The notes under the pieces were generated by a model. It was not told the DNA's origin. It made no database searches and saw only the letters and a program-made list of their open reading frames with translations. From positions 124,001 to 188,000 of the forward strand of contig NZ_JBBYXL010000012.1 in the NCBI RefSeq assembly GCF_039655865.1: 64,000 bases of DNA, in the 5' to 3' direction. Source of the DNA: Prosthecobacter sp. SYSU 5D2. GTDB lineage: Bacteria > Verrucomicrobiota > Verrucomicrobiia > Verrucomicrobiales > Verrucomicrobiaceae. The first letter of the stretch is position 1. Every line of letters begins with the position of its first letter. Positions 8,794-11,380 of this stretch are shown piece by piece. Position numbers and translations under genes: made by a program.

Positions 8794-9858
8794 TTACCAA
8801 AGCTCCATCTGGCCGCCGATTTCGCGAGGGCGGCGGAAGTGGGCGGTTGTCAGCTTGGGGCGGCGATGGAGCATACCAGCGCGTTTCAGGGAGACCTGGA
8901 AAATTTGGGCGATCTGGTCTGACCAGACGCCGACGCCTTTGAGCCGCTTACCAAACTCCGGATGGGAAAGGGTGCGGCCCTGGGTTTCTTCGATGCGGTT
9001 GAGGACCTTGTCCTTCATCCCCGGAAAGTGCTCCTCCAGCCAGAGGGCGAAGACTTCCTTCACGCTGAAGGGCAGGCGCATGACGGTGTATCCGGCGAAC
9101 TGGGCGCCGGCATCGCGGGCGGCGTTGATGATGGCGGGAATTTCACTGTCGTTGAGGCCGGGAATAACGGGGGCCACATTGACCCCGACAGGGATCCCCT
9201 GCCCTGCCATGTCGCGCACGGCCTCCAGACGCATCTTGAGGGAGGAGGCGCGTGGCTCCAGCTTGCGGGCCAGATCGGCATCCAGCGAGGTAATGGAGAT
9301 GTACACGGCGGCGGCCTGATACCGCGCCAGCTCACCCAGATGATCCAGGTCGCGGGTGATGAGGTGATTTTTGGTGATCATGCCGACCGGATGTCGGCAC
9401 TCCGCCAGGACGGCGAGGCAGCCGCGGGTGATCTCCAGGCGCTTTTCCACTGGTTGGTAGCAGTCCGTGATGCCGCTGATGGCCAGGCATTCGGGCAGGT
9501 ATTTGTCCCTGGAGAACTCGGCGCGGAGGAGGGCGGGAGCTTCGGTCTTGACCATGATGCGGGTTTCAAAATCCACCCCGGCGGACCAGCCCAGCCACTC
9601 ATGGCTGGGACGGGCATAACAATAAGCGCAACCATGCTCACAGCCCCGGTAGGGATTCAGGCTGGCCCCAAAACCGAGATCAGGGCTGTCGTTCCGGCTG
9701 ATGATGGAGCTGGAATGGTCATGGAAGAACTTGGTAGCCACTTTGGCGGGTTCTTCACCAGGATCGTAGCTGACCTGGAGGGCGGAGAATCGCTGGTCGG
9801 TATTGAGGCAGGCTCCGCGACCGTGAGGACGGTTGATGGGAGATTTTAGTGTTCTCAT
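8794..9858 (-). CDS. PA0069/SplB-like radical SAM protein under a LexA box
   Basis: A 354-residue radical SAM protein of the PA0069 family, related to spore photoproduct lyase. The SAM-binding [4Fe-4S] motif CEHGCAYC and the preceding SIISRNDSPDLGF and NPYRG segments match the family closely. PA0069 proteins have no proven reaction, but the relation to SplB suggests DNA photoproduct repair or a similar radical reaction. The ATG at 9858 is chosen because the family's early GRGA motif lies only about 10 residues in; a GTG at 9864 is the alternative. A perfect verrucomicrobial LexA operator covers this start codon, so SOS control is likely. It lies 203 bp downstream of another radical SAM gene. 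Confidence 0.9.
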   Translation of the reverse strand: MRTLKSPINRPHGRGACLNTDQRFSALQVSYDPGEEPAKVATKFFHDHSSSIISRNDSPDLGFGASLNPYRGCEHGCAYCYARPSHEWLGWSAGVDFETRIMVKTEAPALLRAEFSRDKYLPECLAISGITDCYQPVEKRLEITRGCLAVLAECRHPVGMITKNHLITRDLDHLGELARYQAAAVYISITSLDADLARKLEPRASSLKMRLEAVRDMAGQGIPVGVNVAPVIPGLNDSEIPAIINAARDAGAQFAGYTVMRLPFSVKEVFALWLEEHFPGMKDKVLNRIEETQGRTLSHPEFGKRLKGVGVWSDQIAQIFQVSLKRAGMLHRRPKLTTAHFRRPREIGGQMELW

Positions 9859-9865
9859 GAACACT
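9848..9865. promoter_or_regulatory. LexA (SOS) operator over the PA0069-like start codon
   Basis: AGTGTTC-TCAT-GAACACT is an 18-bp perfect palindrome. Its core, TGTTC-N4-GAACA (9850-9863), equals the LexA motif published for Verrucomicrobia, defined in Verrucomicrobium spinosum. The ATG of the minus-strand radical SAM gene (9858-9856) lies inside the four-base spacer. A possible -35 (TTGATC, 9893-9888 on the minus strand) would place the transcript start at or next to the operator. Confidence 0.8.
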
Positions 9866-9933
9866 CTTTAATGCAGGTGGCCTGTGAGATCAAGGGGAGG
9901 ATGAGGAACGGGTGTGAGGTCATCCTGCCCTCA

Positions 9934-10061: not shown

Positions 10062-11288
10062 TCAGAGGGCAGGCGAATGGGCCTTGGGATCGAGCTGCTT
10101 ATAGACGCCGAAGTCGTAGTAGAAGTAGCGTTTGGCGATCTTGTACATCCAATGCTTTTCGGGGATCTCTTCCTCTTCGCGCCACTGGCTGGTGCGGGGC
10201 GTCATGGCTTCGAGCTCGGCCATGGCGGTCTGACGGATGGTGGTGTCTTTGGCTCCGTGCTTTAGGGCGAGGTCTTTGACGAGGTCCGGGCGCTCCAGGA
10301 CGATGCAGCCGCGGGTGTGGCGGGCGGCGGTTTCGCGGAAGTCCTTGAGGAAGCCGGACTCGTTGAAGACGTCGAAGATGTCGCGGTCGGTGCGGATGTT
10401 TTCGGTGGCGAACTGGATGATGGGGCAGGGCTCCAGGCCGCCGGTGGGGCCGATGTGGTGGCTGATGCCGGTGGCCATGGGACAGAGGGCCTTGCCCTGG
10501 TGGTCGTAATAAGCGTCCACGATGGCGATGGGCATCTCCGCCCGCATGGAGGTGACGAAGCGGCGGACCTGGGTGATCTGGTCCGGGGTGAGGGCGAGCT
10601 GGTCGTTGATCTTGGGGCCGACGGGGCGGTAGGTGTGGTACCAGGTATAGTGGACGCCCATATCAATGAGCTTTTGCAGCCACTCGCGGGTGAGAAGGTC
10701 GTTGATGTTGGTCTGGCAGAGGCTGGTGGCCACGCCGGTCATGAGCTTGGCATCCAGGCAGTTTTGCAGTCCGCGAAGGGTTTTGTTGAGAACGTCTTTT
10801 TTGCCCCGGCGCTCGTCGCTGACGGTGCTGTTGCCTTCGACGCTGACCAGCGGGGTGGAATTGCCGATTTTACGGAGGGCATCGGCGGTCTTGGCGGTGA
10901 TGAACTGGCCGTTGGTGAAGATTTGGAAGTAGCAGTCCGGGTGCATGGCCAGGAGGTCCAGCAGCTCGGGATGCATGAAGGGCTCGCCCCCGAGGAGGCC
11001 GAAGAAGGCATTGCCGTGTTTTTTGCCGTCGTTGATGATCTTGTTCAGCTCATCCAGGCTGATGGCCTCCCGTGGTTTGTCCACATCCACCCAGCAGCCC
11101 TGGCAGCGGAGGTTGCAGGAGTTGAGGATGGAGATGTAGAGGAAGGGCGGGAAGTAGGTGCCCTGCTCCATGCGCTTTTTGAAAAGCATGACGGAGCGCG
11201 CACCTTTGTAGCCAAAGTTCCAGGCGATCTTCGTGAGACACTTGGGGTCCACGGTGCGCAGCATGCGGGAGGTGAGGGAAAAGATCAT
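10062..11288 (-). CDS. Radical SAM protein with C-terminal cysteines
   Basis: A radical SAM enzyme of about 408 residues from the ATG at 11288. The frame is open to a TTG at 11336, and neither start has a clear ribosome-binding site. The SAM cluster motif CNLRCQGC sits at about residues 58-65, followed by the GGEPFMHPELL segment that contacts SAM. Further cysteines in the C-terminal half (ALCPMA, EPCPII, RGCIVL) suggest an auxiliary cluster of the SPASM/DUF3463 kind. The overall shape recalls HpnH-like or peptide/lipid-modifying radical SAM proteins, but the substrate is unknown. A terminator separates it from the upstream lipoprotein gene. Confidence 0.85.
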   Translation of the reverse strand: MIFSLTSRMLRTVDPKCLTKIAWNFGYKGARSVMLFKKRMEQGTYFPPFLYISILNSCNLRCQGCWVDVDKPREAISLDELNKIINDGKKHGNAFFGLLGGEPFMHPELLDLLAMHPDCYFQIFTNGQFITAKTADALRKIGNSTPLVSVEGNSTVSDERRGKKDVLNKTLRGLQNCLDAKLMTGVATSLCQTNINDLLTREWLQKLIDMGVHYTWYHTYRPVGPKINDQLALTPDQITQVRRFVTSMRAEMPIAIVDAYYDHQGKALCPMATGISHHIGPTGGLEPCPIIQFATENIRTDRDIFDVFNESGFLKDFRETAARHTRGCIVLERPDLVKDLALKHGAKDTTIRQTAMAELEAMTPRTSQWREEEEIPEKHWMYKIAKRYFYYDFGVYKQLDPKAHSPAL

Positions 11289-11380
11289 CAGAAAGGGATT
11301 ACGGACGGAAAGGGAGGGCAGTAACAGCCGGTCCAAGGTAACGGTGAAAGCAGGGCAGATCGCGCAAAAGTGTGAAAAAC

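Follow-up and report, generated by a model that had tools for sequence, protein, structure and literature searches.

A radical SAM gene and the repeat at its start

The stretch of DNA analysed here (the window, 64 kb) carries on its minus strand a gene predicted to encode a PA0069-family radical SAM protein (Table 1). The product showed 432.8 bits to the NCBIfam model of this family (NF033668), which is over the cut-off of 360, and 61.2 bits to Pfam PF04055. The start of the gene is covered by the inverted repeat AGTGTTC-TCAT-GAACACT. A preliminary description of this DNA regarded the repeat as a perfect 18-bp palindrome; the 7-bp arms on either side of TCAT were indeed shown to be perfect, but the four central bases are non-palindromic, leaving 14 of the 18 positions self-complementary. 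The ATG (9858–9856, minus strand) lies in the spacer of the box, as had been described, and the core TGTTC-N4-GAACA spans −5 to +9 of this ATG. No other perfect copy of the core was found in the window, where about 0.034 would be expected from base composition; with one mismatch allowed, 2 sites were found compared to 1.34 expected, i.e., a number at chance level.

Because of the in-frame TAA just upstream, the gene cannot start before the box, and either usable start, ATG or GTG, therefore overlaps it. No further ATG, GTG or TTG was present between this TAA and the conserved GRGA motif of the protein.

Table 1. Positions of the PA0069-family gene, its neighbour and the sequence features around its start in the window
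Feature	Position	Strand	Remarks
PA0069-family radical SAM gene	8794–9858	−	354 aa; CxxxCxxC at residues 73/77/80; ATG start within the operator
LexA operator (predicted)	9848–9865	−	7-bp arms around TCAT/ATGA; core TGTTC-N4-GAACA at 9850–9863; −7 to +11 of ATG
Alternative GTG start	9862–9864	−	in frame, two codons before ATG, also within the box
In-frame TAA	9868–9870	−	−12 to −10 of ATG; two codons before GTG
Predicted −35 element TTGATC	9888–9893	−	within CTTG at −36 of ATG; position kept in 6/6 clade members
Weak −10 candidate ATTAAA	9867–9872	−	−14 to −9 of ATG; low confidence
Second radical SAM gene	10062–11336	−	upstream neighbour

The LexA motif in the genome, in the family and at orthologous genes

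The LexA operator of Verrucomicrobia is reportedly TGTTC-N4-GAACA. Seven perfect copies of this motif were found in the 5.87-Mb genome, compared to one of the reversed pattern and about 3.1 expected from base composition, and 68 compared to 36 when one mismatch was allowed. The genome-wide excess alone is thus modest. The box nevertheless stands above chance because perfect copies are located in front of lexA (−25), recA and a DinB-type polymerase gene (about −33 and −41 from the listed starts), and because the box is enriched at orthologues (see below). Among these three sites and the one at the PA0069-family gene, only the last covers a start codon. The remaining perfect sites were found upstream of a cpYpsA/SLOG-family gene, between phoH and a 7TM-HD gene, and in one intergenic position. 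The cpYpsA/SLOG-family gene (G000:C11:54746-55264; L005, L222), with its perfect box 90 bases upstream, is possibly a further SOS gene; 4 of 30 loci of this kind contained a box within 200 bases (perfect in L222, L223, and L234, with one mismatch in L225).

Across 68 genomes of the family the motif was found 433 times compared to 54 times for the reversed control, and it was the commoner of the two in 66 of the genomes. A LexA-like match was likewise present in 66 of the 68. The box was looked for at 30 of the lexA loci from these 66 genomes, and 29 of the 30 contained a perfect copy 19–31 bases before the start; L170 (G019) was the only one of them without TGTTC-N4-GAACA at up to one mismatch.

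The preliminary description proposed a scan of related genomes for the box upstream of PA0069 orthologues. Loci were taken from named genome records (at least 80), from genomes of the family, where 45 of 68 contained a match and 44 of 46 matches were fetched (those of G033 and G050 were not among them), and from genomes of the phylum, where all 33 loci from the 33 of 288 genomes with a match over the cut-off were included and matches under it left out. Of the 157 loci collected, 155 had an N-terminus (L092 and L143 were dropped), and removal of exact duplicates, with near-identical species kept apart, gave 128 distinct loci including that of the window. The box was scored in the 135 bases that precede the conserved GRGA, and an extrapolated anchor was used for the 35 loci without a clear GRGA. 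Perfect boxes were found at 21 of the 128 loci, and the number rose to 38 at up to one mismatch and 47 at up to two; the other 90 had no box near the start at up to one mismatch. The same 135 bases, scored with 19 permuted half-sites, gave no perfect matches, a mean of 0.47 loci (maximum 4) at up to one mismatch and a mean of 5.21 (maximum 12) at up to two. The true motif gave no match at up to one mismatch in three control stretches, and one or two at up to two mismatches; in one of these stretches, a coding one, permuted half-sites matched up to 10 loci at one mismatch. Since the same perfect motif is present at lexA and recA of this genome and is enriched at relatives of the gene far above the controls, the box at 9848–9865 is very probably a LexA (SOS) operator, in agreement with the preliminary description.

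A FastTree tree of 125 of the 128 loci (three short rows were dropped) required at least 12 changes in box presence and placed the six-member clade of the window in one group (local support 96). Two Opitutae loci (L073 and L089) contained TGTGC-N4-GCACA 46 bases before GRGA, where other loci contain TGTTC-N4-GAACA; this is a hint that the LexA motif has possibly drifted in Opitutae.

Within the genus, the box was found in 6 of 30 loci, all belonging to this clade, and its position relative to the ATG was always exactly −5 to +9. Four of the six boxes were perfect, and two (G018 and G039) had one mismatch. In the other 24 loci, the region searched, about 1.5 kb upstream (less at contig ends) to +40, contained no box at up to one mismatch, even though LexA and the motif are still present in their genomes. 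The scan proposed earlier thus recovered the box at many orthologues but not at most of those in the genus, and the absence from related genes that the preliminary description had named as evidence against its reading was in part observed. The box as a universal feature of the genus is rejected. The 30 loci do not comprise G033, G050, L143 (G022) and L146; the last is an additional copy found in G027 (51% identity), whose box has one mismatch and lies 67 bases ahead of the reference point.

Different genes were found upstream of the six boxed loci: another radical SAM gene in two and a type II secretion F gene in three (Pfam match run on L107), while L108 showed no convincing close same-strand neighbour. 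The second radical SAM protein encoded upstream in the window scored far under the cut-off even for the best of the 25 NCBIfam matches listed (72.7 bits compared to 525), and a similar ORF end also precedes the PA0069-family gene in G018. With upstream ORFs of the genus called mechanically and distances measured to a point 36 bases before GRGA, the start was no more than 50 bases from an upstream same-strand ORF in 16 of the 24 boxless loci, compared to 1 of the 6 boxed loci. The same upstream gene ending was present in 13 of the 24, and in L123 it belongs to a ParA-type ATPase. The simplest reading would be that the box was lost through capture of the gene behind another gene; alternatively, it may have been regained in the clade of six. 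The boxless relatives, many of which closely follow a parA-type or some other gene, lend themselves to comparison as natural cases in which the gene may have left the regulon.

Promoter signals and readings of the start-codon layout

All six boxed members of the clade contained CTTG at −36/−35 of the ATG. The upstream DNA of the six is only 0.19–0.49 identical, compared to 0.70–0.87 for their coding DNA, and CTTG and its two trimers were the only tri- and tetranucleotides present in at least five of the six upstream regions; a trimer common to all six occurred in none of 300 shuffles. L145 and L178, which come from other genera and likewise have a box that overlaps the start, contained CTTG at −34 and −36 of the start, and the sister pair L068/L070, where the box also covers the start, showed no TTG near −35. 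These ten loci were the ones scored for a −35 element; L054 and L062, where the box overlaps only a TTG or GTG and an ATG lies nearer the gene, were left out. Judged by the position of CTTG, transcription would start at about the ATG. A very short or absent leader, as the preliminary description had expected from the operator position, is thus supported, and a leaderless or nearly leaderless start is considered fairly likely.

The −10 element is fair in G018 (TTTAAT) and in G014 and G017 (AATCAT), and weak in the window and in G013. A mechanical sigma-70 scan reported no promoter over threshold at the gene of the window, and the best-scoring promoter pair for the gene of the window and for that of G013 (7 of 12 in each) differs from the one proposed here. 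A fixed promoter position relative to the box in all relatives was considered and rejected, as TTG positions scatter over the 38 boxed loci. At lexA, TTG positions before the box also differ (commonest −24 and −26, −14 and −13 from the box).

A rather unlikely alternative is that LexA binds the box on a gene with an ordinary leadered mRNA, with the promoter further upstream, LexA acting as a roadblock, and the position over the start codon being incidental. Boxes of other lineages are compatible with this, since over the 38 loci they are found at many distances (−120 to −31 of GRGA), and so are the weak −10 of the window and the possible weak Shine-Dalgarno sequence AAAGAG at −11 to −6 of its ATG, which overlaps ATTAAA. 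However, CTTG at −36/−35 is the only word common to six diverged upstream regions and recurs, with the same layout, in L145 and L178 from other genera, and G013, G014, and G017 contain no purine run in the last 10 bases before the ATG.

It is improbable that the palindrome works also, or mainly, as RNA, so that transcripts reading through from upstream would fold into a hairpin with the AUG in its loop and be silenced, while an SOS transcript, lacking the 5′ arm, would be translated. In G014 (L106, 1485–1520) a perfect inverted repeat with 16-bp arms, far longer than the LexA core, encloses a 4-base loop that contains the start codon (fold z −4.6). The arms of G013 and G017 extend over 11 and 12 bp, each including one mismatch (z −2.3 and −2.0), and those of the window over 7 bp (z −1.6), but no significant fold was found in G018 (z −0.7) or G039 (z +1.4). 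Two steps outside the core, all six sequences retain a pair (UA, GC, or AU), and the covariation score and the percentage paired were each reached by only 1 of 500 shuffles and were above all six slid versions. On the other hand, pairs changed on both sides were not above the shuffles (the observed 4 were reached by 155 of 500), and with only six related sequences, relatedness alone can exceed shuffles. A DNA operator moreover selects for the same symmetry: a fraction of 0.55 and 0.58, respectively, of the 38 boxes was self-complementary at step one and step three of the flanks. Read-through would be conceivable in five of the six loci, where upstream same-strand ORFs end 41–203 bp away.

Quite improbable, too, is a double role of the palindrome, i.e., a LexA operator as DNA over a leaderless SOS transcript and a silencer hairpin as RNA in read-through transcripts. 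It would fit the extended arms of G013, G014, and G017, but G018 and G039 do not show it. If true, the gene would be shut at two levels by the same letters, and only the damage-induced transcript would be translated.

An operator of another repressor, or a chance palindrome, is very improbable indeed: the small genome-wide excess and the lack of a box at most of the same-genus loci examined would suit it, but the same motif is present at lexA and recA and the 38 boxed loci compare with a mean of 0.47 for permuted half-sites, and a chance palindrome was rejected on position and orthologue enrichment.

We regard as quite likely the model in which a free-standing PA0069-family gene has a LexA operator lying over its transcription start as well as its start codon. 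The occurrence of the box at −5 to +9 throughout the six-member clade, behind different upstream neighbours, counts in favour of it. According to this operator model, RNA polymerase would recognize the −35 element 35 bases before the ATG and the transcript would begin at the ATG or within a base or two of it, so that LexA bound at about −7 to +11 would prevent the polymerase from binding or escaping. RecA filaments present after DNA damage would trigger self-cleavage of LexA, the site would be freed and the enzyme made. As judged by fold, the enzyme would repair or process a damaged base of a nucleic acid by a radical mechanism, in a manner related to, but distinct from, that of spore photoproduct lyase. 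The layout, which is unusual, would be a clear case of an operator, a probable transcription start and a translation start that coincide.

The predicted enzyme and comparison with known systems

For conservation analysis, 59 rows were hand-picked from the 128 loci for spread. The three cysteines of the cluster motif (C73, C77, and C80) were invariant in all 59, as were Y79, D132, Y134, Q135, P136, E138, and K163. The AlphaFold2 model of the protein (mean pLDDT 92.7) was compared with solved structures. In Foldseek, six spore photoproduct lyase entries came first (best 2.4e-9), followed by SkfB (9.9e-7), and with VIA spore photoproduct lyase entries likewise took the first six places (Z 19.1–19.7 over 268–274 residues), followed by NifB (15.0). 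The ranking by sequence profile was different: SkfB (4.1e-7) and NifB (3.5e-4) were both placed above spore photoproduct lyase (0.13).

An ordinary spore photoproduct lyase orthologue was rejected, as the protein scored only 17.5 bits against TIGR04070, far under the cut-off of 400. The designation PA0069/SplB-like given in the preliminary description is thus confirmed as to the PA0069 family and to the closest fold, but the protein lies outside the spore photoproduct lyase family and sequence profiles favour other radical SAM enzymes. By its predicted structure, the protein is a fold relative of spore photoproduct lyase and not a member of that family.

We take Cys140 to be the catalytic residue of spore photoproduct lyase, and Tyr96 and Tyr98, beside the third cysteine, to be functional residues. 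The position of Cys140, located through the C140S and C140A chains and carried over by a chained alignment (through L215 and a profile alignment), aligned with Gly129, which is Gly in at least 90% of the rows. Two other cysteines are near Gly129 in sequence, C147 (57 of 59 rows) and C133 (40 of 59). Residue 81 was Tyr in 45 rows and Phe in 14. The chemistry may involve another hydrogen donor (C147, C133), another lesion or another substrate. The damage-induced DNA-repair enzyme proposed in the preliminary description is plausible. On balance, we favour a role of the enzyme in nucleic-acid repair; this step is weakened because the profile ranks SkfB and NifB above spore photoproduct lyase and because the single over-cut-off control genome need not be that of Caulobacter (see below). 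Distant spore-photoproduct-lyase-like genes were also observed in two verrucomicrobial genomes (L214 and L218), directly behind what appears by eye to be a nucleoside phosphorylase/nucleosidase gene.

PA0069, which presumably falls in COG1533, and Rv2578c reportedly belong to the LexA regulon in their respective species. The PA0069 family was found in several phyla, according to the titles of named genome records among the matches listed. The presence of the SOS operator at many verrucomicrobial genes of the family, together with the predicted spore-photoproduct-lyase-like fold, gives a testable hypothesis of a damage-induced radical enzyme acting on nucleic-acid lesions. Among 14 control genomes, the PA0069 model matched 7, Caulobacter included, with one of the 7, which need not be Caulobacter, over the cut-off, and the spore photoproduct lyase model matched 2, Caulobacter not among them. 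Because Caulobacter was matched by the former model and not by the latter, some published splB genes may be PA0069-like.

In the portions of the published reports available to us, SOS control of splB/COG1533 is predicted or reported for alpha- and beta-Proteobacteria and Bacteroidetes (PMC3323433; PMC8565304), and SplB-like radical SAM proteins are tied to SOS gene neighbourhoods (PMC3765255). The regulatory link is therefore not new; what the present analysis adds is that the layout over the start codon is conserved in the clade and that the other loci examined in the genus lack it. Neither a description of this layout nor a tested function of PA0069 was found in a literature search that lay mostly outside subscription papers and is weak to that extent. 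In the available parts of two papers, PA0069 appears only as a tag site or as a probe in a nitrite microarray table (PMC7485682; PMC6546240).

Compared with the verrucomicrobial LexA operator, the core motif is identical and is shared with lexA and recA of this genome, but at lexA it is placed before the start, whereas here it lies over the start codon. As for SOS-regulated splB/COG1533, the accessible text of those reports describes LexA control of the same broad gene group as here. The splB product is labelled a photolyase in PMC3323433, by homology to the B. subtilis enzyme as far as the part available goes, whereas the protein described here is far under the spore photoproduct lyase cut-off. 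The Rv2578c family (NF038135) was the next-best NCBIfam match (198.4 bits), yet under its own cut-off of 430. Spore photoproduct lyase (4fhc and mutants) is the closest solved fold, although radical SAM folds in general also match the model, and it has the CxxxCxYCY cluster motif with Tyr79 (59 of 59 rows) in common with the protein; it differs in that Cys140 is replaced by the near-invariant Gly129 and that the position of Tyr98 is Phe in 14 of the 59 rows.
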